Virus record (IMG/VR): IMGVR_UViG_3300043100_000037 | Coordinates: 1 to 40,681 of that record | From: a virus | DNA: 40,681 bases | Direction: 5' to 3' (one strand) | In this document: positions 3,609-32,030 of the stretch, piece after piece | Numbering within the stretch: the first letter of the stretch is position 1 | How the letters are laid out: every line of letters starts with the position of its first letter | Program-made: the position numbers and the translations under genes | The notes under the pieces: model-generated | What the model saw: the letters and a program-made list of their open reading frames with translations, nothing else | What the model was told of the DNA's origin: nothing | The model's database searches: none

Positions 3609-5117
3609 ATGTCCCGTTTCGGTTTTGTCGGTCCCAGCTACCTGAGCACCTCGCCCATCGCGGACGCGGAGGAGTGCATCAACTTCTACCCGGAAGCGAT
3701 CGAAGGCCAGGGGAAGACTGCGTATGCGCTTTACCCGACGCCTGGGCTGAAGCCGGTCTCGAAATTAGTGAACGAGACCGCCATCTGGGGACAGAAGTGG
3801 GTGCCCGCGGCGGGAAGATATTTTGCCGGGGGTTCGCATCTCTACGAACTGGACCAGAATTTCACGATCACCGACCGCGGCGCACTCACCGCACCCACTG
3901 GGCCGATTACCATCATCTGCAACCAGACTCAGCTCCTGATCCTCTCCGCGGGCTTGTTGTGGGTGTTCACGCTCGCGACCAACACCTTGGCCGCGGTGGT
4001 GAGTCCGCCGTTTCCCGCAGTAGCTGCGATCGGTTTCAGTGACGGCTTCGCAGTCGCCGTGCAAAGCTCGCCGGCGGACATCGCGCTTTCTTCGATCGGA
4101 GATTTCTCCACCTGGAACGCGATCAATACCTCGTCGATTTCGCTCTTTCCCGACAACATCGTTTCGATGGTGGTCGACCACCGCGAGCTGGTGCTCTTCG
4201 GCAACACCAAAAGCGTGGTCTACGCCAACGCCGGCGCCGCCATTTTTCCCTTTCAGCCGGTGCCGGGGGCTTTCATCGAACAGGGTGCGGATTCACTCTC
4301 CGGGCAGGTCCAGCTCGACAACTCCGTCATGTGGACGTCGTTCGATGAGCGCGGCCACCTGGTCGCCTACCGATCGCAGGGCTATGTGGGACAGAGGATC
4401 TCGAACCACGCCGTCGAACAGCAGTGGCAAAGCTATGCGACGACGTCAGATCTGATCTCCTACAGCTTGCAGATGAACGGCCACCCCTGGTGGCACCTCT
4501 ACTTCCCCACCGCCGGCGTCTCCTGGCGTTACGACGTCGCGACCGGAATGTGGCATAAGGCTCTGGGCTGGCTGAATGGCGCCTACACCGCCCACAACAC
4601 GCAAAACCATGCCTTCGCCTTCGGCAAGCACCTGATGGGCGACTGGGCTTCAGGAACCATCTACCAGATGGCGATGCCGAGCTACAACGGCGCGTCGTGG
4701 GATTTTTGCAGCGATGGCGCGAATCCCATCCGCCGGCTGCGCCAGAGCCCTTACGTGCAGACCGAGGGTGTGCGCGTCTACCACAACCGGTTGCAATTCG
4801 ATCTGGAAACCGGCCTCGGCCCGATCCCGCCGCTCCGAGACGCAATGGGCAACCCGCGCGATCCCCAGATGATGGTTTCCTGGTCGAACGATGGCGCGAA
4901 AACTTTTTGTCCGAACAAAATCCTGAATTGCGGCCAGGGCGGCAACTACTCAAAGCGCGTCTTCCTCAACCGCCTGGGAAGCACTTTGCATGGACGGGTG
5001 TACCGCGCGGTGATGACGGATCCGATCCCGTGGCGGTTTGCTGACGCCTGGCTCGACGCGGATCCGGGATTCAAACCAACACAGCGACTGGCCGACCAGT
5101 TGAGGGCGAGAGCCTAA
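3609..5117 (+). CDS. P22 gp10-like tail hub / packaged-DNA stabilisation protein
   Basis: The 502-residue product matches the P22 gp10 family (packaged DNA stabilisation; P22 gp10 is about 470 residues), which forms the hexameric tail hub below gp4. Family hallmarks are the N-terminus with INFYPEAIE and PTPGL, and the C-terminal MMVSWSNDGAKTF, NYSKRVFLNRLG and FRIAV-like YRAVMTDPIPW. The start is ATG 3609, 3 bases after the small upstream ORF. The next gene starts immediately after the stop. Confidence 0.9.
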   Translation: MSRFGFVGPSYLSTSPIADAEECINFYPEAIEGQGKTAYALYPTPGLKPVSKLVNETAIWGQKWVPAAGRYFAGGSHLYELDQNFTITDRGALTAPTGPITIICNQTQLLILSAGLLWVFTLATNTLAAVVSPPFPAVAAIGFSDGFAVAVQSSPADIALSSIGDFSTWNAINTSSISLFPDNIVSMVVDHRELVLFGNTKSVVYANAGAAIFPFQPVPGAFIEQGADSLSGQVQLDNSVMWTSFDERGHLVAYRSQGYVGQRISNHAVEQQWQSYATTSDLISYSLQMNGHPWWHLYFPTAGVSWRYDVATGMWHKALGWLNGAYTAHNTQNHAFAFGKHLMGDWASGTIYQMAMPSYNGASWDFCSDGANPIRRLRQSPYVQTEGVRVYHNRLQFDLETGLGPIPPLRDAMGNPRDPQMMVSWSNDGAKTFCPNKILNCGQGGNYSKRVFLNRLGSTLHGRVYRAVMTDPIPWRFADAWLDADPGFKPTQRLADQLRARA

Positions 5118-5489
5118 ATGCCCGTCACTGCCATCACGATTAAGCCGCCGTCGCAGGTGCAGCGGCCGATTGTGGATAAGGCCGGGATCATGCTGCGTGA
5201 GTTTGTGACTTACCTGCTCTCACTCACCAACACTTTTCAGCTTTTCACCGCCGACACCACCGCCGGCAACTTCACGCAACCGTTGCCACTCGCGGCCAGC
5301 TTACCCAACCAGGAGGTGTTCGCCATCAAGATTTCAGCCGACGGCAACACCTTCTCACTCTCTGCGCAAGGCTCAGACAAGATCAACAAACAGGGCGCGT
5401 GGGGAGCTTCTGCGTTGGCGGTGGGCACAGCGCAGGGCGCAGCGGCGAGACTGAAGAGTGACGGGAACTCGAACTGGTACGTGATATGA
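5118..5489 (+). CDS. Hypothetical tail-associated protein (gp26 position)
   Basis: The 123-residue product is unrecognised. It sits where P22 encodes the tail needle gp26 but is about half that length and lacks an evident long coiled coil. The C-terminal half is beta-rich and ends in SDGNSNWYVI, a pattern seen at the end of small fibre or tail-tip domains. ATG 5118 abuts the stop of the gp10-like gene, and its own stop overlaps the next start (ATGA at 5486). A minor tail or plug protein is the most reasonable guess. Confidence 0.7.
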   Translation: MPVTAITIKPPSQVQRPIVDKAGIMLREFVTYLLSLTNTFQLFTADTTAGNFTQPLPLAASLPNQEVFAIKISADGNTFSLSAQGSDKINKQGAWGASALAVGTAQGAAARLKSDGNSNWYVI

Positions 5490-5746
5490 CCTCAGAAGAA
5501 CAGATCCTAGAAATGTTGCGCGACTACGCTGGCGGCGAGGCGCTAACTCCGGATACCAGGCTCGACTCCCTGGCTCTTGATTCGCTCGAATTCCTCGACA
5601 TCCTACAGCAGGTCGAGGACCGCTTCAGCTTCACCATCGACAAACAAGTTGTTCCCCACATCAACACCATCCGTGATTTGTGCCAGCTCGCGCTCAGTGC
5701 CGACGGCCAGTTTCACCCGGTCTATGAATCTCGTCTATCAAGTTGA
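5486..5746 (+). CDS. Acyl carrier protein
   Basis: The 86-residue product has the length and layout of a discrete acyl carrier protein. Helix I is at about 3-16, then a loop, the DSL phosphopantetheine site at Asp32-Ser33-Leu34 (LALDSLEFLDILQQVEDRF), an acidic helix II, and a last helix near 58-70. Such proteins carry acyl chains on 4'-phosphopantetheine at the serine after modification by a host phosphopantetheinyl transferase. It is translationally coupled on both sides: ATGA overlap with the preceding gene and a 23-base overlap with the GNAT gene downstream. An acyl carrier protein inside a phage tail operon is very unusual. The residues after about 72 are an extra tail. Confidence 0.88.
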   Translation: MTSEEQILEMLRDYAGGEALTPDTRLDSLALDSLEFLDILQQVEDRFSFTIDKQVVPHINTIRDLCQLALSADGQFHPVYESRLSS

Positions 5747-6185
5747 GCCGCTGAGCGCCCTCGAACGCGACATCTGGCCGCTGCTTCCGCTGCACTGGGA
5801 AGAACTGGCGCTCGATAAATCGCAGATGAAGGTGGACGTGTTCGTCTCCCGCTACAAGGAGTTCGAGCAGAATGGAAACCTGCACATCGTCACCATCCGC
5901 GAAGAAGGCCGACTGGTGGGCTACTTCATTTTGATGCTGGGCGAACATCTGCACTATCACAACGCCGGCCGCATGGCCTATACCGACGTCTACTTCATCC
6001 ACCCGGAATTCCGCAGGGGGGGCGCCGGCGTGAAGCTCTTCACTGAAGTGGAACGTACCTTGCGCGATCGCGGCGTGGTAAAGGCCTATTTCACCTGCAA
6101 GGTTCACCAGGATCACTCCGCGATCTTCGAGAAGTTGGGCTGGAACTGGACCGACAAAGTCTTCACGAAAGTGTTTTCCAACTAA
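5724..6185 (+). CDS. GNAT-family acyltransferase partnered with the acyl carrier protein
   Basis: The 153-residue product has the GNAT fold signature. The beta-strand TDVYFIHPEFRRGGAGVKLF contains the R-x-x-G-x-G cofactor loop (RRGGAG), and FEKLGWNW near the C-terminus matches motif B. GNATs usually acetylate amines from acetyl-CoA, but some (FeeM/LuxI-like and HlyC-like acyltransferases) take acyl chains from acyl-ACP. The overlapping acyl carrier gene makes that donor plausible here; this is inference. The start is set at ATG 5724, which leaves a 23-base overlap. Its position between tail and ejection genes suggests a virion or host-envelope substrate. Confidence 0.85.
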   Translation: MNLVYQVEPLSALERDIWPLLPLHWEELALDKSQMKVDVFVSRYKEFEQNGNLHIVTIREEGRLVGYFILMLGEHLHYHNAGRMAYTDVYFIHPEFRRGGAGVKLFTEVERTLRDRGVVKAYFTCKVHQDHSAIFEKLGWNWTDKVFTKVFSN

Positions 6186-15843: not shown

Positions 15844-16161
15844 ATGGGCATCTTCCAGATCCCCGATCCGGTGTCGATGTTCGAGTCCGCCAAGAACGCG
15901 GGCCTCGAGCGCGAAGTCGCGAACGCCCTGGTTTCCGCCACGCTCTCAGCGGCGATCACGGGCATGTGGCGCTCCGGATCGGCGAAATGGGCCGACTGGA
16001 CCGGCGAAGGGCAGGCGCTCAAAGACGCGGCCACTGTGATGTACCTGTCGCTTCGGGATCTCGAACGACAAAACTTTCTGACTCTCACCGTGCCCAAAGA
16101 CTTAGAGGACGCGGACAACCTCAGTCGATTTCAAACCGAACACCAGGAGAAGAAGAAATGA
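15844..16161 (+). CDS. Hypothetical helical protein
   Basis: The 105-residue product from ATG 15844 is mainly helical (FESAKNAGLEREVANALVS, then AKWADWTGEGQALKDAATVM). No clear ribosome-binding site is visible; an in-frame GTG at 15802 is possible but would overlap the divergent gene start. The two divergent genes are only 26 bases apart, so their promoters must overlap them or lie elsewhere. The stop overlaps the next ATG. The function is unknown. Confidence 0.6.
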   Translation: MGIFQIPDPVSMFESAKNAGLEREVANALVSATLSAAITGMWRSGSAKWADWTGEGQALKDAATVMYLSLRDLERQNFLTLTVPKDLEDADNLSRFQTEHQEKKK

Positions 16162-17016: not shown

Positions 17017-17361
17017 ATGTGCTACGACCAAGAGAAAACCCAGGCCGCGCCCGACGCGAGTTTACGTGAGCGCATTGAGAAGAATTTTCACCGTGAGCGC
17101 GAGGCGGCTAACCCAGCCGGCGGTCTTGCAGGCCGCTCCTTCAGCCACAAAGAAATCCTCGCCGAACTTTTCAGCTACCACCCACCGACGCCAGAGACGC
17201 TGCCGAAATATTCCGCGATTAATCAGGCGGCAAAAAACTTCGCGGAAGTGGTGATGCAGAACTGCCCACCGTCGCGGGATTTCTCGCGGGTGATCGAACT
17301 CATCCAGGACGCGCGCATGACGGCGAACCGCTCGATCGCACTGAATGGGTTGTCGCTTTAG
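17017..17361 (+). CDS. Acb2/Tad1-family hairpin-domain protein (anti-CBASS/anti-Thoeris candidate)
   Basis: The product is 114 residues. Residues about 52-110 match the Acb2/Tad1 hairpin domain: LFSYHPPTPE, then YSAINQAAKNFAEVVMQNCP, then a final helix ending MTANRSIALNG. Characterised members bind and sequester cyclic nucleotide or cyclic ADP-ribose signals, blocking CBASS and Thoeris immunity. The N-terminal 45 residues are an extra polar segment. It is followed 13 bases later by a small phage protein that often occurs near such genes. The family call is fairly strong; ligand choice cannot be read from sequence. Confidence 0.75.
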   Translation: MCYDQEKTQAAPDASLRERIEKNFHREREAANPAGGLAGRSFSHKEILAELFSYHPPTPETLPKYSAINQAAKNFAEVVMQNCPPSRDFSRVIELIQDARMTANRSIALNGLSL

Positions 17362-17982: not shown

Positions 17983-18281
17983 ACTATCCATTTTCCCCCG
18001 CGTTTTGAGGCCGCAGTTTCCGCCCGGTTGTTCCCGCCCGCGTCTCCACTCCTGAAATCTCTCCTGGGTTTTGGTCCTCGGTTTGCTTCGCCGCACTTAT
18101 CAGGCGGGTGTTGGGGTTGCACGTCCAGAAAATGCAGTTTGATTGCGCGCGAAAGGAAAGGCGATCGGCTTTTCAGGTCGAGGGCGCGCCACCGCACTAG
18201 GTTTTGGGGACCCCTTACCATCTAATCGGGTGTTTGGATCTTAACTGCTCTAACCAACAGCAAGATCAAGAACTTTTCTTC

Positions 18282-18345
18282 GACAAATTGTCACTCGTAC
18301 ATGTTGTCGCTGCTACAGAGTGTCGCCCGTGCAAATTGTCATGGG
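18282..18345. repeat. Four tandem 16-bp iterons
   Basis: Four consecutive units with exact 16-bp spacing are GACAAATTGTCACTCG, TACATGTTGTCGCTGC, TACAGAGTGTCGCCCG and TGCAAATTGTCATGGG. C at position 3, A at 4 and TGTC at 8-11 are invariant; units 1 and 4 share CAAATTGTCA. Such arrays are typical binding sites for replication initiators in plasmids and phages. Here the likely partner is the DnaA domain I-like protein at 19372. Confidence 0.7.
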
Positions 18346-18549
18346 TAGGCTGAGAGTCGGCGCTGCTCGGGAGGTTCGGACTGGTGAGCGCCTCTTCGCC
18401 GCATGAACACGGTGTGATTCTGGCCAGGCTGCGCGGGGCTGTGATCGCGTAGGATCGGGGAACCTCGCGAGCTACCCCCCCCCCGAAGTCGGTGGTTTCA
18501 GTGGAGTTTTGTATGGTTTTTGCGCGGGAACTACAGATTTTACTTGCGA

Positions 18550-18562
18550 ACCACTACGCATA
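18550..18562. promoter_or_regulatory. Operator-like element upstream of GGK protein 1
   Basis: ACCACTACGCATA differs at two positions from the 13-bp element ACCGCTACGTATA found twice before the paralogous gene at 28723. It lies 19 bases before the ATG at 18582 and is part of the partial palindrome ACCAC...GTGGT (18550-18568). Confidence 0.5.
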
Positions 18563-18581
18563 GGTGGTACAAATCGCGGTC

Positions 18582-18923
18582 ATGGCACCAAAAACGGAAG
18601 GCGTCGCAACAACTGAACTGCTCACCGCAGAAGAGTGGGCGAAGCGAATCGGCAGGCAGGGCGGCAAGACCCGCGCTAGTCGCATGACTGCCGAGCAACG
18701 AAAAGAGAGCGCGCGCCTCGCGGCCAAAGCCCGCTGGAAGAAGAAAAACGGCGGTGGTGGCAACGGTGGCGGCGGCAACGGATCGCCGCTGAGCGAGGGG
18801 CCAACTGTCGATCAGCGTCCGATAATGACAGGTATTAGGTTAAGTTCGCGACGCCCGCCCCATCGCAAGCCCGCCAGTTCCGTAAATCCTACAAAACGGT
18901 CGAGGTTCGCCGATGCCGCCTGA
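18582..18923 (+). CDS. Small GGK-R-A type putative DNA-binding protein 1
   Basis: The product is 113 residues. Residues about 22-50 carry IGRQGGKTRASRMTAEQRK and the A-rich ARLAAKARW helix, a motif of small bacterial and phage proteins thought to bind DNA. It is paralogous to the protein at 28723 (LGRRGGKARAGNMTQEQR...ARKAVQARW). A Gly/Asn-rich linker follows, and the remaining 40 residues look non-conserved. The upstream DNA has a diverged copy of the element found before the paralogue, suggesting autoregulation or cross-regulation. Confidence 0.65.
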   Translation: MAPKTEGVATTELLTAEEWAKRIGRQGGKTRASRMTAEQRKESARLAAKARWKKKNGGGGNGGGGNGSPLSEGPTVDQRPIMTGIRLSSRRPPHRKPASSVNPTKRSRFADAA

Positions 18924-18943
18924 AGCTCTGCTACAAGCGGCGG

Positions 18944-19288
18944 ATGCCCAGCCCCCCGTTCTGCCCTTTCGTCGAGCGCGTTCTCGGGCGCCTCTGGCAG
19001 GCCGAGCTGCACGAACCCAACCCCCATTTCCAGTGCGACTATCGCATCGCCTGGCTCACCCTGCTCTATGCAGCCCGCGGCTACTCGCAGCCGTTTGTGG
19101 CGGCGACCTACTCGGTCCTGGGGCTTCACCCGGACAAAGTCTGGCCCGCGATCGTCGAGCGGCGGAAGGCTCTCTTGGGTTCGTTGTTCGAAGAATTCTG
19201 GGGCGCGAGCGTTTCCGTTCAAACTCAGCCGCCCAAAAAGCCAGCGCAGTCGGAACGCCAAAAAAATCGCCGCACCGAAGCGGCATGA
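18944..19288 (+). CDS. Hypothetical protein in replication region
   Basis: The product is 114 residues from ATG 18944. It includes HFQCDYRIAWLTLLYAARG and GLHPDKVWPAIVERRKALLG, well-formed helices, and a basic C-terminus. The frame is open back to 18839 with protein-like codons (for example YKTVEVRRCRLKLCYKRR) but has no ATG, GTG or TTG before 18944. The true N-terminus may use CTG, arise by frameshift from the overlapping gene at 18582, or be lost. Function is unknown. Confidence 0.55.
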   Translation: MPSPPFCPFVERVLGRLWQAELHEPNPHFQCDYRIAWLTLLYAARGYSQPFVAATYSVLGLHPDKVWPAIVERRKALLGSLFEEFWGASVSVQTQPPKKPAQSERQKNRRTEAA

Positions 19289-19314
19289 AGGGAGAACTCT
19301 TCGGGTAAAAGCGA

Positions 19315-19342
19315 ACGGCGCGAAGGGACATCTTCGCGCCGT
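19315..19342. promoter_or_regulatory. Strong hairpin upstream of the replication gene
   Basis: ACGGCGCGAAG (19315-19325) pairs perfectly with CTTCGCGCCGT (19332-19342) across a 6-base loop. No T-run follows. It sits 30 bases before the start of the DnaA domain I-like gene and could be a leader structure, a Rho-assisted terminator, or an origin hairpin. Confidence 0.55.
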
Positions 19343-19371
19343 GAATTGCGTCAGCCCCCGCCTAAGAGGCT

Positions 19372-20358
19372 ATGGCAACAGCCACAGCATACCGCAACTT
19401 GCCGGAGTCGGAAAGTGGAAAATTGTCTCCGCTCGCCCTCGAAAGAATCGAGGCCTCGAATCTCAAGCCCGGCGTTGCGAGAACCCTCCGCTACCTCGTC
19501 ATCCGCAGCCAGTACGGCCCCGATCTCTGGGCTCCCACTTTCAAAGTAAGCGTCGATGCGGGCTTTCACTACCGCACCGTGCAGCGCCACATCGACAAAC
19601 TGGAGCGGCTGAAAGTTTTGAAGTTGAAGCACTCGGCCAACACCCACGTCAACGGAAAGATTCGCCGCTCGGCAACCTACGTGTTACACCCGGAGTCGGC
19701 GAAGCACCTGACACCGCGCCAGAATTTCGAGCAGTGGAAAAAGTGCAACGGGCGCGAGACTCCGCTGCGCTTCCGTCCGCAGGCAGCCGCCCCGATCACC
19801 CCGATTGCCGCGCCCACAGCCGATCAACGGCCTCACTTCCCGAGCGACGACGTGAAATCGCGCAAACTCACGCGCGATGAAAAATCTGCCCTGGTGCGCC
19901 GCGTAGTCTCTCTCACCAGGGTAGCTCCAACTCAATCGCAGCCCGTTCCCCCGCCCGAAGTCGAGTCCGAGTCCAACTGGTCGCGCGTCCTGAAAGTGCT
20001 GGAACACAAAATCAACCGGCACTCGTTTGAAACCTGGATGCGGCCCACCCGCGGCCACCACGAAGTCGGAGGCGTTCTCTACGTCTCGGTTCCGACGCCG
20101 GACTTCCTGCACATCGGCGACAAGCACAAACTTCTGCTCGCCGACGCCCTCCGTGAATTGAGGATGCCCTACAGCGCCGTCCAGTTCATCGCGCCGGAAC
20201 AGGTTAAGGCTCAGCCCGCGATGAGCAAACGGGCCGCGCTCGCGCAAGCCTGCCAAGAGTTGAGCACCCCACAGCGCCGCATTTCGATCGAGGACGGAAT
20301 TGTCGCGTTGCGGCTTGCGGGGTACTGGAATTTCGAGGACGCGGACAAGGGGCCGTGA
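19372..20358 (+). CDS. Putative replication initiator: helix-turn-helix plus DnaA domain I-like fold
   Basis: The product is 328 residues, starting at ATG 19372 after AAGAGG. Residues about 30-105 look like a winged-helix DNA-binding domain (FKVSVDAGFHYRTVQRHIDK followed by a beta wing). A Pro-rich linker follows. Residues about 203-275 resemble the DnaA N-terminal domain (WSRVLKVLEHKINRHSFETW then GVLYVSVPTPDFL), used by DnaA for self-assembly and helicase loading. No AAA+ domain is present. With iterons upstream and no phage polymerase or helicase in the genome, it probably recruits the host replisome. This role is inferred. Confidence 0.75.
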   Translation: MATATAYRNLPESESGKLSPLALERIEASNLKPGVARTLRYLVIRSQYGPDLWAPTFKVSVDAGFHYRTVQRHIDKLERLKVLKLKHSANTHVNGKIRRSATYVLHPESAKHLTPRQNFEQWKKCNGRETPLRFRPQAAAPITPIAAPTADQRPHFPSDDVKSRKLTRDEKSALVRRVVSLTRVAPTQSQPVPPPEVESESNWSRVLKVLEHKINRHSFETWMRPTRGHHEVGGVLYVSVPTPDFLHIGDKHKLLLADALRELRMPYSAVQFIAPEQVKAQPAMSKRAALAQACQELSTPQRRISIEDGIVALRLAGYWNFEDADKGP

Positions 20359-20360
20359 GT

Positions 20361-20385
20361 TTGTTCGGTTTTCGGAACAAAACCG
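20361..20385. terminator. Overlapping hairpins after the replication gene
   Basis: CGGTTTT (20366-20372) pairs with AAAACCG (20379-20385) around CGGAAC. TTGTTC (20361-20366) can instead pair with GAACAA (20375-20380). The two structures exclude each other. They begin 3 bases after the stop codon, so they may form a weak terminator or attenuator. Confidence 0.4.
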
Positions 20386-20462
20386 GCCAGCCGCGCGCGT
20401 TCTCGCGAATTTGAAGTAGAACGATTTTTGCCGTCAGACCCGCCTAGGAGGAAAGGAAGACT

Positions 20463-20702
20463 ATGGCTTCAACCGCAGTCACGAGAATTTCCCGTCCACC
20501 GCGAACCTTCGCTCGGGTTCGCATTCGCCGCGAGCGTTCCCAACAAGCCTCGATCGAGTTGCGCGAAGTTCTCCCCGGCTCCGTCGCCCGCGACTTAGAC
20601 GATCTGGTAGCGATGGGCTTCCTTGAAGCCTTCCGCGACGAGCACAACGTTCTCCGCTACCGGCCGCTGAAAGGAGCAGTGCGCCATGACTTCGCAGCTT
20701 GA
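20463..20702 (+). CDS. Small putative winged-helix protein
   Basis: The 79-residue product starts at ATG 20463 behind AGGAGGAAAGGAAG. The basic N-terminus is followed by SVARDLDDLVAMGFLEAF and HNVLRYRPL, which resembles the recognition helix and wing of a winged helix-turn-helix. A DNA-binding regulator is possible. It heads a chain of coupled small genes running to about 22855. Confidence 0.6.
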   Translation: MASTAVTRISRPPRTFARVRIRRERSQQASIELREVLPGSVARDLDDLVAMGFLEAFRDEHNVLRYRPLKGAVRHDFAA

Positions 20703-20931
20703 CACTGCCCCGAACAGTTCAGGCCGCGAGCTGGGCGGTGGTGGTTCTGGAGGAGACATCACCGCCCTCGATCCCTTCGTCTGTCAGGACATGCGCTGGT
20801 GCGTAAACTGCGGCGGCGAGCAGGTCTTTGTCGAAGTGTTTGAATTCGACGGCGGACGAATGGGAGTTTGTCTCGGCTGCGGCGACGAGCGGATCGCGCC
20901 CTTCAGCCGAACCATTGCGGAGGTGGCCTGA
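20686..20931 (+). CDS. Small zinc-ribbon protein
   Basis: The 81-residue product starts at ATG 20686, inside the end of the previous gene, with AAGGAG upstream. It has a Gly/Ser-rich N-terminus and a zinc ribbon WCVNCGG...CLGCG with two C-x2-C pairs. The stop overlaps the methyltransferase start. The function is unknown; short zinc ribbons of this kind are common in phage accessory operons. Confidence 0.7.
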   Translation: MTSQLDTAPNSSGRELGGGGSGGDITALDPFVCQDMRWCVNCGGEQVFVEVFEFDGGRMGVCLGCGDERIAPFSRTIAEVA

Positions 20932-22906: not shown

Positions 22907-24898
22907 ATGAAAGCTGTCGTCGCTTCGTCGCTCGTGTTTCTGCTTCTCTCCGTCGCCTCCGCGCAGGACCTCGTCTCCTCCGCGCTCCGCGTCTCCCTGA
23001 ACTTGAACGGCACCTGGCAGTACGTTCTCAATCAACCGCAGTCTTCGATTCCCACCGCCGGCTGGCAGCCGATGCGCGTGCCCTCAGCGCCATACATCGA
23101 CGGCACCAGCTCCGTCTGGTACGAAGCTCCGCTCAACATTCGGCCGAACTGGATCTCCGCCGGCCGGCGATTCTTTTTGGAGCTTGAGAAGTGCGGCCAC
23201 TACTGCGCCGTCTACGTGAACGGCTCTTTCGCCGGCGATCACTATGGCCAGTTCTCACCCTACGAAGCCGAGATCACTCCGTTCGTCGTCGCCGGCGCGA
23301 ACGAAATCGAGATCTACGCGCACATCGCCGACGACACCTACACTCGTCGTGGGGCGACCCTCGATCAATCGAAATGCCCTCCGGCGAATCCGAACTGTCT
23401 CGCGAATTCCTACCGGCCATCTTCGATCACCGACGTCCAGCGCGACTGGGTGGGCATCATGGGCGACGTCACCTTCTCCTGGCGCGGATCTGCGAACGAA
23501 TACATTTCCGACGTCCAGGTCATCACCAGTTTCCAGAACGGCACACTCACTGCGAACGTTACGGCCGTCAACGCCGGAGCCGCGGCCACCGTGAGCGCCT
23601 CAGTGATGGATGGATCGACCGACGTGCTCGATCTTCCCGCGGTGCCGATCGTGAATGGATCCGCGCAGCTTACGGCGCCCTGGGCGAATGCCATTCTCTG
23701 GCAGCCGGGAAACCCGAAACTCTACCAGCTGCACACCTTCTTGACCGATGGCCAGCTCGCCGACGAACGCTACGATCGTTTCGGTTTCCGTGAAGTCTGG
23801 GTCGAAGGAAAAACAATTCTGCTGAACGGGATCCCGCTCTGGATGACGGGCGACTACGAAGTCAAATTCTCGCCCACTCGCCTTTTGAGCGATCGCCGGC
23901 CGCTCGCGATGCTGTTCCACATCCAGCAGCAATCGGGCTTGACGGCCGCGGAATTCCATTGGGACGATGCCGGCCGGGAGTTTCTCGATCTCGCGGACGA
24001 AATGGGGATCCTGGTCCTCGGCGTTTTTTATTGCAATGGCCCCGACGTCACCCAGGCCCAGGTCGACAACCAGGCCGACTGGCTCGCCTGGATGCAGGCA
24101 ACGGCCACCGAGTGGGCACAAGCTGAGCGGAACCACCCCTCGATCGTGCTCTGGCGCCCGATGGACGTTGTGCCTCCAGGATCCGGACACCAGGCCACAG
24201 TTTTTCCCGCGATCGCCGCGGCGGTGCACCTGGTCGACACTACGCGGCCGATCGCCGATGGCAGCGACGTCGACACCTGGGCGCAGAGTCTCGTCGATCC
24301 GAACGATCCCACCGAGTGCGACGACGGATCCGCCTTCGCCCAGAAGCTCGCTGGTGAAACCAAGCCGCTGCTGATCAAAGAGCTGTACGGTTTTGGACTT
24401 CCCTGCGCCCCAGCCACCATCAAGACGCTTTACAACACCGCCTGGATGGGCGGCGGCGCCGGCATGATCGTGCAGCAGCTCGGGCTGTTTGGCACACCAC
24501 CCTTCACGCCCACCTGGTTCTCTCAAAGCGGAATTGGAAACCGAGCGACAGCCGCCGGCGACATGCCGGACTGGATCACCGAGCAGTGGACGGCGACAAA
24601 TTGGAGCCAGGAATTCGCCGCGCTCTACGCCGCGGATCCGGGTCTCGGTTTGCCGAACACCACCCCACTCGACGGCGAATATCAGGCCGCAGATTTCCCT
24701 CTTCCCTTTTCAAGTGAGCAGCTCGCGGTGTTTCTCGTGCCGCCGGCACGCACGGGAATCCCGGTGGGTGTGATCGCATCCGGCGGATCTGTAGATCTCT
24801 TCACCGAGCAAGCTGGGGAGAATACGCTGAGCTACTGGAACGGCGCCCAGGACGTTGAGCAGTCGGTAATCGCGCCGGCGCCGGGGCCACTCAAGTGA
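22907..24898 (+). CDS. Secreted GH2-like glycoside hydrolase homologue, acid/base residue missing
   Basis: The product is 663 residues. The signal peptide is MKAVVASSLVFLLLSVASAQ. A GH2 sugar-binding domain (LNLNGTWQYVL; AVYVNGSFAGDHYGQFSPYE) spans about 30-150, an Ig-like domain about 195-285, and a TIM-barrel-like domain follows (FGFREVWVEGKTILLNGIPL; REFLDLADEMGILVLG). In active GH2 enzymes NHPS...W is followed by GNE; here it reads NHPSIVLWRPMDV, with Val421 where the catalytic acid/base Glu belongs. The nucleophile-type Glu492 in KPLLIKELYG is kept. The protein may be inactive or use another mechanism. AAAGGGG lies before the start. A secreted sugar-active protein on a small phage genome is unusual. 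Confidence 0.75.
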   Translation: MKAVVASSLVFLLLSVASAQDLVSSALRVSLNLNGTWQYVLNQPQSSIPTAGWQPMRVPSAPYIDGTSSVWYEAPLNIRPNWISAGRRFFLELEKCGHYCAVYVNGSFAGDHYGQFSPYEAEITPFVVAGANEIEIYAHIADDTYTRRGATLDQSKCPPANPNCLANSYRPSSITDVQRDWVGIMGDVTFSWRGSANEYISDVQVITSFQNGTLTANVTAVNAGAAATVSASVMDGSTDVLDLPAVPIVNGSAQLTAPWANAILWQPGNPKLYQLHTFLTDGQLADERYDRFGFREVWVEGKTILLNGIPLWMTGDYEVKFSPTRLLSDRRPLAMLFHIQQQSGLTAAEFHWDDAGREFLDLADEMGILVLGVFYCNGPDVTQAQVDNQADWLAWMQATATEWAQAERNHPSIVLWRPMDVVPPGSGHQATVFPAIAAAVHLVDTTRPIADGSDVDTWAQSLVDPNDPTECDDGSAFAQKLAGETKPLLIKELYGFGLPCAPATIKTLYNTAWMGGGAGMIVQQLGLFGTPPFTPTWFSQSGIGNRATAAGDMPDWITEQWTATNWSQEFAALYAADPGLGLPNTTPLDGEYQAADFPLPFSSEQLAVFLVPPARTGIPVGVIASGGSVDLFTEQAGENTLSYWNGAQDVEQSVIAPAPGPLK

Positions 24899-26566: not shown

Positions 26567-27811
26567 CTAGAACGGCACCTCCCATTCTTCCGACTCGCCA
26601 CGATCGTACTCGGCGATCGCGTCGGCCACCTGGCTGAGAACATCTTCCTTCGATTCGAGCTTGTGGACGGGGAATTTTTCGTAGGCGTGCAGGATGCGCA
26701 GCCCGCGTTCCAGCTTTTCGAGCGGCAGCGCGTCGGCGGCTTCTTTCGACTTCACCCCGAAGATCAGGTCGGTAACGGCCAGGCGGACCTGGACGTCTTC
26801 CTTCGCGCGGCCGGCGAACGAAACATCGAGACAGGCTTTGATCTCGGCCGAGATCGCCGCCTTGCGCTCGCGTGCCTGGTAAAACTCCCCGTTGCCGTTT
26901 GAGTCGATCATGGCCTCTGAACTCGCCGTGGTGTCGAGCTGCACGATGCCCATCGTCTCCTGGACGGCGGCGAAGTGCGGCTTGAGGCTCTGCCACACCT
27001 GCGCGTAGCCGCCGGGTTTGTAGCCGACCTTGTCCGACCAGCGGAACTCCTCGCCATTCAGCGCCCAGGTGCGGTCTTTGAGAACGTAGGCCACGTGATT
27101 CATGCGGCCGGCGTTTTCCTCGACCTTGCCGCCCTTGCGCCGGGGCTTCTGCTCGAGCTTCATGCGCAGCACCAGGTGGGGCTCGTAGCCGAAGTTGTTC
27201 GAGCCGCCGGCTTTCATCTTCTCGCCGGTTTTCACGCGAGTGATTTCGCCTTTGTCGTCGACCAGGTCGTCGGTGACGTCGCCCACGCGGCCGAGCGCGA
27301 TGCAGTGCATTTTTGAGTTGAGAAAGTGCGCCACGTATTCGGTCCACAGCGCGTTCAGTTCGTTGCCCCAGTTCGAGCCCGACTTCGCGCGAACGGTTTT
27401 GAGCAGCTCGATCCAGATCTTCTGGAGTTCGACCATCCACACGCAGGCGCCGGCACGTTCGGCGTCGCGCATGTCGGTCAACATCGCCTTGAAAGTGGGA
27501 ACGGTCCGCTGCACGAACTCGATCTTCTCCGGTTTGAAAATGGTGTGCTTGGGAAACTGCATCCCAAGTTCAGGATCGGTGCCCCACACCGGAGCGCCCG
27601 AGTAGAACTCTTTCGAGATCGCGGCTGCGTAGAGACAGGCGGTTGTGGTTTTCCCGGTTCCCTGCTCGCCGAAGATCGCGAGCTTCGTGGGAATCGGAGT
27701 GGCTTTCTGCATCGCCGGCGGATTGACGACGGTCGGTTGCGGAGGTTTCGGTCTGCGGACGTCGTGGACGTCCATAAAGTTCGGCGTGAGTGGGTGCTGT
27801 TGAGTTGCCAT
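26567..27811 (-). CDS. Sak4-like single-strand annealing/recombination ATPase
   Basis: The 414-residue product starts at ATG 27811 with AAAGGAG upstream; a longer frame to 28054 runs through other genes and is not used. Walker A GEQGTGKTT is at about 48-56 and a hydrophobic strand ACVWMVEL at about 113-120. The single RecA-like core followed by GGSNNFGYEPHLVLRM is typical of phage nucleotide-binding proteins of the Sak4 type, which aid homologous recombination. The C-terminal 150 residues are a less conserved helical region. It is translated with the preceding small gene (TAATG). Confidence 0.75.
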   Translation of the reverse strand: MATQQHPLTPNFMDVHDVRRPKPPQPTVVNPPAMQKATPIPTKLAIFGEQGTGKTTTACLYAAAISKEFYSGAPVWGTDPELGMQFPKHTIFKPEKIEFVQRTVPTFKAMLTDMRDAERAGACVWMVELQKIWIELLKTVRAKSGSNWGNELNALWTEYVAHFLNSKMHCIALGRVGDVTDDLVDDKGEITRVKTGEKMKAGGSNNFGYEPHLVLRMKLEQKPRRKGGKVEENAGRMNHVAYVLKDRTWALNGEEFRWSDKVGYKPGGYAQVWQSLKPHFAAVQETMGIVQLDTTASSEAMIDSNGNGEFYQARERKAAISAEIKACLDVSFAGRAKEDVQVRLAVTDLIFGVKSKEAADALPLEKLERGLRILHAYEKFPVHKLESKEDVLSQVADAIAEYDRGESEEWEVPF

Positions 27812-27990
27812 TACTGTGTTCTCCTTTGGTTGCGAATTTTCTCGGCCGCGAACTGCTGCATCACGGCCTGAGGGTCGAACTTGCCGGCGAGGTAATCGGC
27901 GAAGGCCTGGCGGAAGATCGGTCCTGCCGGCGGACCACCAGTTCTCGGGTGAAAGACTTCGTCGTAGAACCTGAATTCCTGTTCCGTCAC
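27811..27990 (-). CDS. Small hypothetical protein upstream of Sak4-like gene
   Basis: A 59-residue frame starts at GTG 27990 with AAGGAGG and a 5-base gap, and ends by overlapping the Sak4-like ATG. It has FRFYDEVFHPRTGG and a helical FRQAFADYLAGKFDPQAVM. Function unknown. Confidence 0.65.
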   Translation of the reverse strand: MTEQEFRFYDEVFHPRTGGPPAGPIFRQAFADYLAGKFDPQAVMQQFAAEKIRNQRRTQ

Positions 27991-28155
27991 CTAGACCTCC
28001 TTGATCGTTGTCGGTGCCGGAATGCCTCTCTCCGCGCACCAGGCGATGACGCACTCGGTGAACCGATCGACCTGGTTGCAGACTTCCTGCAACAAGGCGG
28101 CTTCGACCAGGTCACGCTCGGCGTCGGTGGTGTAGATCAGCTCGCTGAACTTCAC
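27991..28155 (-). CDS. Small helical hypothetical protein
   Basis: A 54-residue frame starts at GTG 28155, overlapping the upstream stop (GTGA). It is mainly helical (DAERDLVEAALLQEVCNQVD) and has three cysteines. It belongs to the leftward operon. Function unknown. Confidence 0.6.
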   Translation of the reverse strand: MKFSELIYTTDAERDLVEAALLQEVCNQVDRFTECVIAWCAERGIPAPTTIKEV

Positions 28156-28535: not shown

Positions 28536-28614
28536 GTTGGCCTCCAGTAAGGTCAATTTTGGTTAGGGCCGGGTGAGTGTTGGTAGCACTCGCCCGATCC
28601 GTTCTACGCCTCAC

Positions 28615-28643
28615 ACTTTATTTCTACCGCTACGTATAGTCAA
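28615..28643 (-). promoter_or_regulatory. Sigma-70-type promoter of the leftward operon
   Basis: On the minus strand TTGACT (28643-28638) and TAAAGT (28620-28615) are separated by exactly 17 bp. The 13-bp element ACCGCTACGTATA fills the spacer, so a bound protein would block RNA polymerase. This is the best -35/-10 pair found in the control region. Confidence 0.6.
28626..28638. promoter_or_regulatory. Operator-like element, copy A
   Basis: ACCGCTACGTATA lies within the spacer of the leftward promoter. An identical copy begins 52 bp further right, and a diverged copy lies before the paralogous regulator at 18582. Confidence 0.6.
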
Positions 28644-28677
28644 GGACTTTATTCGCCCTGATTTCATCGAGTTACCA

Positions 28678-28690
28678 ACCGCTACGTATA
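28678..28690. promoter_or_regulatory. Operator-like element, copy B
   Basis: ACCGCTACGTATA ends 32 bases before the ATG at 28723. The 52-bp spacing from copy A, about five helical turns, would put bound proteins on the same DNA face. It could repress the rightward transcript. Confidence 0.6.
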
Positions 28691-28722
28691 TGTCCGTGGA
28701 ATCTCGTGGTAGAAATGCAGCA

Positions 28723-28947
28723 ATGACACACAAAGACCCTGCGGCGGTTTCACTCGGTAGGCGCGGTGGCAAGGCCCGCGCCGGGAACATGACACAGGAA
28801 CAACGTTCAATCGCCGCACGCAAGGCCGTGCAGGCCCGCTGGGCTAAACTGGAAAAGTCCGTCGCCCAGCTCGACGCCGATTCCAAAGCCCTCCTCAAAA
28901 AGGTCGAGGCGCGGAAGAAGGCGAAGCAGAAGAAGGAAGCGAAGTGA
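28723..28947 (+). CDS. Small GGK-R-A type putative DNA-binding protein 2
   Basis: The product is 74 residues from ATG 28723 (ATG 28690 is in frame but overlaps operator copy B). SLGRRGGKARAGNMTQEQRS and ARKAVQARW match the protein at 18582, and a Lys-rich tail ends KAKQKKEAK. It stands first in the rightward operon, divergent from the recombination operon, where a control protein would be expected. A regulator of the early/late choice is inference. Its stop overlaps the next GTG. Confidence 0.7.
   Translation: MTHKDPAAVSLGRRGGKARAGNMTQEQRSIAARKAVQARWAKLEKSVAQLDADSKALLKKVEARKKAKQKKEAK
28920..28947 (+). repeat. 28-bp direct repeat, copy 1 (stop/start junction)
   Basis: The 28 bases are identical to 29177-29204. 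Each copy carries AAGGAAG, codons for AKQKKEAK, and the GTGA that ends one gene and starts the next. Confidence 0.8.
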
Positions 28948-31441: not shown

Positions 31442-31472
31442 CGGCTTCACACTACGTTGTTTTGTGAACTTT

Positions 31473-31506
31473 TTTGATTGTTTTTGATTTCTGATGGGAA
31501 AGCAAA
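31473..31506. repeat. Recombinase-associated site 1
   Basis: TTTGATT (31473-31479) and TTTGATTT (31483-31490) are direct copies. The second is mirrored by AAAGCAAA (31499-31506; 7 of 8 complementary) across an 8-base spacer CTGATGGG, which contains the recombinase ATG. The layout of short inverted arms around 8 bases resembles a tyrosine-recombinase core site. Confidence 0.5.
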
Positions 31507-32030
31507 GCCTCGATCGGGAGCAAATCCTCGCGCTGCTCGGCGCCGCGAAAGCCAAGCGGGAGCGCGACTACCTGATGATCTGGCTGGCCTTCTGCCACGG
31601 ACTGAGAGCGTCGGAAGTGGTTGCACTGACAAGAAATAACTTCGACGGCGAGCACATCACCGTGCAGCGGCTGAAGGGATCTCTGAAGACAACCCAGCGC
31701 CTGGTCGAGCACGCGGATCCGCTCCTGAACGGCCGAAAAACCCTGTTTGATTTCCTTTGCTTATTCAGGGGAAATCAAAGACTGTTCCCGATCACCCGCG
31801 AGTGGTTCTGGCGCCTGGTCCAGGAGTACGGGAAAGCCGCCGGGATCCCCAAACACCTCCGCCACCCGCATGTGCTGAAGCACTCGATCGCCATGCAAAC
31901 CATTGAGCAGGCGGGAATTCAGAACGTGCGCCAGCATCTCGGTCACAAATCGATTTCTTCGACCGGCGAATACTTGAAGGTCACTGACGCCGCCGCCACC
32001 GCCGCCGTCCAGGGTGCTCTCGCTGTTTGA
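31494..32030 (+). CDS. Minimal tyrosine recombinase (catalytic domain only)
   Basis: The product is 178 residues, close to FimB/FimE size and far shorter than arm-type phage integrases (about 330-400). Active-site residues visible are Arg38 (CHGLRASE), a Lys near 61-64, His126-V-L-Lys129, His151 (LGHKS) and Tyr160 (GEYLK). The second arginine of the H-x-x-R motif is replaced by lysine. No core-binding or arm-binding domain precedes it. The start ATG 31494 has no ribosome-binding site and lies inside the spacer of repeat site 1. It may integrate the phage, invert DNA, or resolve genomes. Confidence 0.8.
   Translation: MGKQSLDREQILALLGAAKAKRERDYLMIWLAFCHGLRASEVVALTRNNFDGEHITVQRLKGSLKTTQRLVEHADPLLNGRKTLFDFLCLFRGNQRLFPITREWFWRLVQEYGKAAGIPKHLRHPHVLKHSIAMQTIEQAGIQNVRQHLGHKSISSTGEYLKVTDAAATAAVQGALAV
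31746..31779. repeat. Recombinase-associated site 2 (inside the gene)
   Basis: TTTGATTTCC (31746-31755) and GGAAATCAAA (31770-31779) are perfect 10-bp inverted arms around 14 bases, within the recombinase coding sequence. The spacer is longer than in the other two sites. Confidence 0.45.

Follow-up and report, generated by a model that had tools for sequence, protein, structure and literature searches.

Our analysis of the window, i.e., the whole stretch of 40,681 bases that makes up virus record IMGVR_UViG_3300043100_000037, argues for a theta-type replication module in which ORF 19372-20358 (+) encodes an origin-binding initiator acting on 16-bp iterons and docking the host helicase or its loader through a domain resembling domain I of DnaA, a reading to which we assign a probability of about 0.6. 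The 328-aa product of this ORF is most likely the theta-replication initiator of the phage. The initiator role put forward in a preliminary description of this DNA is supported by an architecture that matches bona fide initiators (the RepA family of plasmid pBS72 and the protein of phage Jenst) and by an AT-rich stretch adjoining the repeats. We propose a model in which (i) the N-terminal winged helix would bind the four iterons at 18284-18347, (ii) the protein-iteron assembly would help open the adjoining AT-rich stretch at 18220-18289, (iii) the DnaA domain I-like module would, judging from homology, bind the host replicative helicase DnaB or a loader or adaptor, bypassing host DnaA, and (iv) host helicase, primase, and polymerase would then copy the phage DNA. 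Opening and helicase docking are the best reading in the light of what is known of DnaA domain I and of pBS72-type plasmids.

The candidate origin region (17983-18563) is a gene-free stretch of 581 bp, close to the 600 bases first estimated, with no plausible gene in the ORF list. Within it, repeat inspection and pattern search delimited four tandem 16-bp units of the pattern CANNNTGTCNNNNNTN at 18284-18347 (+), with unit starts at 18284, 18300, 18316, and 18332 (CAAATTGTCACTCGTA, CATGTTGTCGCTGCTA, CAGAGTGTCGCCCGTG, and CAAATTGTCATGGGTA, respectively). Alignment of the units and shuffles confirmed the four tandem units and the exact 16-bp spacing given in the preliminary description, as well as its invariant CA and TGTC, which stand at positions 1-2 and 6-9 in all four units together with a T at position 15; the 16-mers flanking the array on either side do not match the unit pattern. 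The three-unit pattern CANNNTGTC at 16-bp spacing was found only in this array (0 expected from 100 shuffles), and single occurrences of CANNNTGTC outside it are at about the chance rate. When any four-unit array with a period of 9 to 30 was scored, the array reached 8.45, against a maximum of 7.6 in 60 dinucleotide shuffles of the whole window. The same scan of the window gave an equal score (8.46) at 4137, where the period is 24 bp and the repeats lie within a coding ORF, so that this score marks the array as significant without making it unique. The array ends two ORFs and 1,024 bp ahead of the start of ORF 19372-20358, in agreement with the distance of one kilobase described earlier, and a small ORF lies between the two (18944-19288, +; 46% identical to the ORF at the same place in the related phage G001).

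An AT-rich stretch at 18220-18289, our candidate unwinding element, adjoins the array and overlaps its first unit; with 63% AT over 70 bp, against 40% AT for the genome, it is the second strongest AT peak in the window. The same intergenic region holds a block (18031-18150) that is conserved in the syntenic intergenic region of G001 (69% over 131 columns, E=1e-9), and the strongest AT peak of the G001 genome lies in the intergenic region equivalent to that of the array; a nucleotide search of the origin region among phages returned no match. Detrended cumulative GC skew, proposed earlier as a check, is lowest at window position 15947 and at G001 position 47726, which are equivalent positions about 2.3 to 2.5 kb before the respective AT peaks, and the window maximum lies 20 kb from the minimum, i.e., half a genome away. 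The skew thus fits an origin here and is supportive, not decisive, since gene orientation also shapes it. The recruitment of host DnaA suggested in the preliminary description is not supported: no DnaA box lies closer than 13 kb to the array, even when one mismatch is allowed, and the sole exact box in the window is at 5171, so that we reject recruitment of DnaA through DnaA boxes and take recruitment of the helicase or its loader as the better reading. The absence of a box near the array would fit a DnaA-independent start.

The repeats could also be read otherwise, with the protein still an initiator, the 16-bp array being the operator for a regulator of the early operon that begins at about 18.56 kb, and the origin sites lying elsewhere. 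The array does stand in an intergenic region ahead of a plus-strand operon, its first unit makes up an almost perfect palindrome (GACAA-A-TTGTC, 18282-18292), units 16 bp (about 1.5 helical turns) apart are atypical of iterons, and the pBS72- and Paenibacillus-type relatives have their repeats beside or just after rep. We nevertheless judge this explanation unlikely, since a search of the window's initiator gene and the bases just behind it (19300-20480) turned up no repeat array, the ORFs scanned showed no clear phage repressor gene, the array region gave no sigma-70-like promoter, and an adjoining AT-rich stretch is typical of origins. That the repeats arose by chance as a short array without function, as the repeat-free G001 and the equally scoring array inside a coding ORF might suggest, is very improbable for an array that beats 60 of 60 whole-window shuffles, is non-coding, adjoins an AT peak, and shows a strict three-unit pattern with zero expected chance occurrences.

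The putative initiator, preceded by a ribosome-binding-like site (AAGAGG) just upstream of its ORF, comprises an N-terminal winged-helix-like region, a linker, the DnaA domain I-like module, and a short C-terminal helical tail. The predicted DNA-binding region (about residues 47-107; 19510-19692, +) is delimited by weak PHROG and Pfam matches and by its helix/strand pattern. With the full protein as query, it matches the O-like replication initiation family phrog_391 (3.2e-4 over residues 51-222) and phrog_1032 (1.1e-3), the former falling to 0.022 when the N-terminus alone is the query. The helix-turn-helix-like N-terminus of the preliminary description is a tentative assignment, with its O-like match and weak matches that concur, but not at the Pfam cut-offs, below which HTH_36 (0.075; 13.3 bits against a cut-off of 25), eWH (0.012), and Replic_Relax (0.083) all remain; several weak, concordant matches point weakly to a winged-helix-like region. 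Structure models predicted without an alignment were of low confidence (mean pLDDT 48 and 57) and served for secondary structure alone, and fold searches with them gave no match at E 0.001.

The module at residues 201-276 (19972-20199, +) is better defined. The resemblance to DnaA domain I first noticed at residues 203-275 was borne out by Pfam DnaA_N, which matches residues 201-242 above its curated cut-off (E=5.5e-7; 29.6 bits against 24.6), and by the PDB, where the top match over residues 202-276 is domain I of B. subtilis DnaA (4tps, 4.4e-7). The DnaA model TIGR00362 matches at positions 1-89 of 437 only (17.5 bits, with a cut-off of 343.9), so the AAA+ domain III and the DNA-binding domain IV of DnaA are absent; Pfam and related profile scans likewise found no AAA+ match in the 328-aa protein, as had been claimed. 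Residue alignment with B. subtilis DnaA pairs W203 with W8, F219-E220-T221-W222 with F24-E25-T26-W27, and F245 with F49, in the native numbering of the B. subtilis protein. According to PMC10201431, B. subtilis T26, W27, and F49 are essential for the recruitment of DnaD to oriC, and the phage protein keeps all three as T221, W222, and F245. In E. coli, the equivalent face of domain I touches DnaB through Glu21 and Phe46, as described in PMC5448010; Glu21 aligns with Ser218, and B. subtilis likewise has Ser there. W203 occupies the position of E. coli Trp6, which dimerises. Divergence is seen in the C-terminal third of DnaA_N, where the DW motif that follows F49 (around E. coli Trp50) is lost.

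These conserved surface residues would also suit a decoy that sequesters the partners of DnaA (helicase, DiaA- or DnaD-like adaptors) and thereby shuts down host initiation or diverts the helicase, and phage-derived proteins acting on domain I do exist, e.g., the E. coli prophage protein YfdR, said in PMC5448010 to bind via Phe46; this is nonetheless a slim prospect for a protein that also has an O-like winged-helix region and the same layout as known initiators, in a phage where no other initiator was recognised among the scanned ORFs. The statement that the phage has no polymerase or helicase gene stood when most of the early and middle ORFs were scanned with Pfam and PHROG, but has to be qualified by a P-loop ATPase at 26567-28054 (-), with weak AAA_24/Sak4-like matches and a match to phrog_1366. 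With an initiator as the preferred reading, the locus offers a small system to ask whether an origin-tethered domain I alone suffices to load the replicative helicase without DnaA.

The window is best explained as a roughly 40.5-kb dsDNA phage from soil, an environmental phage without a close match among phage records. Its two terminal stretches of 142 bases share 98.6% identity, so the genome is probably complete and circularly assembled; since G001, a phage record of 55,884 bases with a terminase 76% identical to that of the window, is also terminally redundant (97 bp), both are probably complete. Synteny between the two spans 15.8 to 20.9 kb of the window. Within it, another gene cassette fills the place in G001 between the homologues of window 18944-19288 and 20686-20931, and searches of the G001 record found neither the initiator gene, nor any DnaA_N, nor the 16-mers. 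The preliminary description had tied the origin to conservation of the 16-mers in relatives; they are absent from this one syntenic relative, which is not decisive against an origin because G001 also lacks the initiator gene. The replacing cassette (L011 4095-5339) encodes, by eye, a J-domain-like protein (phrog_9210) and a cold-shock-like protein, so G001 may start replication differently. A doubtful hypothesis would be that an unrelated winged-helix protein independently gained DnaA domain I in a soil phage lineage, yielding a phage initiator made of a single protein that would dock on the host helicase without an intermediary and work on 16-bp half-turn-phased iterons, in a cassette that related phages exchange as a whole (gene and repeats are absent together from G001).

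Searches of IMG/VR, phages, and plasmids with the whole protein yielded no homologue, the single plasmid match being a true DnaA. The C-terminal part as query in phages brought up chance matches and two complete DnaA proteins on faecal contigs, neither of them a fusion. Back-translated FETWM[..]P and FETW[LF]RP in IMG/VR (36 and 12 stretches) led to unrelated ORFs only and to no DnaA_N protein, and a domain alignment scan for DnaA_N relatives confirmed none. Moreover, 289 genomes from the phylum of a Spartobacteria MAG with a 40% terminase relative held no relative. The precedents discussed below were found with B. subtilis DnaA domain I, not with the window protein, as query against plasmids and phages.

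Several other features of the window deserve mention. Just upstream of the origin region, 17017-17361 (+) encodes an Acb2/Tad1 hairpin-domain protein (Pfam PF24729, E=4e-12), likely an anti-CBASS/anti-Thoeris cyclic-nucleotide sponge, with a homologue (32% identical) at the same place in G001. A 38-bp block at 18813-18850 (CAGCGTCCGATAATNNCAGGTATTA...) is 84% identical between both phages (L011 3031-3068) and has the look of a dif/Xer site; in both it is read in frame as coding sequence, with synonymous changes nevertheless nearly absent, and it was found in no other IMG/VR contig. A dif-like reading was considered and is not established. The small proteins of 18564-18923 and 28573-28947 (+) share a GGKxRAxxMTxEQR...ARW motif (paralogues by eye) and match the same G001/L003 stretches, the former also matching phrog_2384 weakly. 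Further along, 22907-24898 (+) encodes a family 2 glycosyl hydrolase of 663 aa, here in a phage genome, and visual inspection of the ORF list points to an acyl-carrier-protein-like ORF with a GNAT-like acetyltransferase ORF behind it at 5486-6185 (+). ORF 31494-32030 (+), which comes after the highest AT peak in the window (31445-31514), encodes a 178-aa tyrosine recombinase consisting almost of the catalytic domain alone (Pfam Phage_integrase, 3.6e-18), which suggests a temperate or Xer-like lifestyle.

Compared with bacterial DnaA, the window protein has domain I in common, but carries it at the C-terminal and not the N-terminal end. In lambda, four iterons lie beside an AT-rich stretch and inside the O gene, and O recruits DnaB through P. 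Four repeats beside an AT-rich stretch give the window a lambda-like layout, and its protein shows weak N-terminal similarity to lambda O-type initiators (phrog_391, phrog_1032); unlike lambda O, it carries DnaA domain I, and its repeats lie outside the initiator gene.

The novelty implied by the preliminary description has to be given up, as the design already exists in Bacillus and Paenibacillus plasmids and in at least one phage. Proteins joining a winged helix to DnaA_N are found on Bacillus, Paenibacillus, Thermobacillus, Terribacillus, and Cytobacillus plasmids, annotated as "helix-turn-helix" or "DnaA N-terminal domain-containing," and the same one is on pBS72 and on the vector pHT01_cbiA. 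A seven-member family (pBS72 RepA and six others, including that of Jenst) combines HTH_36 and DnaA_N without AAA+, HTH_36 being below the Pfam cut-off in 2 of the 7. Like the window protein, pBS72 RepA and its plasmid relatives (about 327 to 359 aa) have a winged helix in the N-terminal half and DnaA_N in the C-terminal half without AAA+, and several members have repeats near the gene. In hhalign, the DnaA_N part alone aligns with this family (E=3.7e-6), and the winged helix has no significant match (profile comparison probability 1.4%, E 0.035); hence, the window protein is of the same kind by design and not a demonstrated full-length homologue. The repeats differ as well, lying beside or just after rep in the pBS72 and Paenibacillus types, spaced about 22 bp apart or dispersed (Paenibacillus lautus and Thermobacillus have tandem 22-bp repeats next to the gene, and in pBS72 dispersed copies closely follow repA), whereas those of the window are spaced 16 bp apart and lie 1 kb upstream.

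For pBS72 itself, Titok et al. reportedly described in 2006 an iteron origin, a dispensable DnaA, and homology between a domain of RepA and the domain with which DnaA binds the helicase. The title of the paper speaks of a theta mechanism (Titok 2006, PMID 16622063, cited in PMC1866360), and PMC5615212 calls a pBS72 derivative DnaA-dependent, so that DnaA independence is at most a tentative reading. In B. subtilis, the plasmid origin oriN with RepN is described in PMC10201431 as independent of oriC and DnaA and still in need of DnaD and DnaB.

The closest phage counterpart is the replication initiation protein of Brevibacillus phage Jenst (YP_009199065; 347 aa), which is likewise phage-encoded, combines HTH_36 and DnaA_N, and has a tandem repeat upstream of its gene (0.45 kb); Jenst differs in its 126-kb genome, a partition gene nearby, a repeat period of 11/22 bp, and a winged helix above the HTH_36 cut-off. 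The Rubrobacter TrfA/RPA-DnaA_N and Hymenobacter Rep3_C-DnaA_N plasmid proteins have the same DnaA module, but join it to unrelated DNA-binding domains of the Rep_3, RPA, or TrfA type, which shows that the module has been borrowed repeatedly. Our study supports the view of domain I as a portable helicase- or loader-docking module on several unrelated initiators (winged-helix, TrfA/RPA, Rep3), and adds an environmental phage to the carriers of the DnaA domain I initiator design, which had been mainly plasmids of Firmicutes. Altogether, a winged helix joined to DnaA domain I without the motor is already known, and this phage has a version of it with a divergent DNA-binding half and unusual 16-bp repeats.
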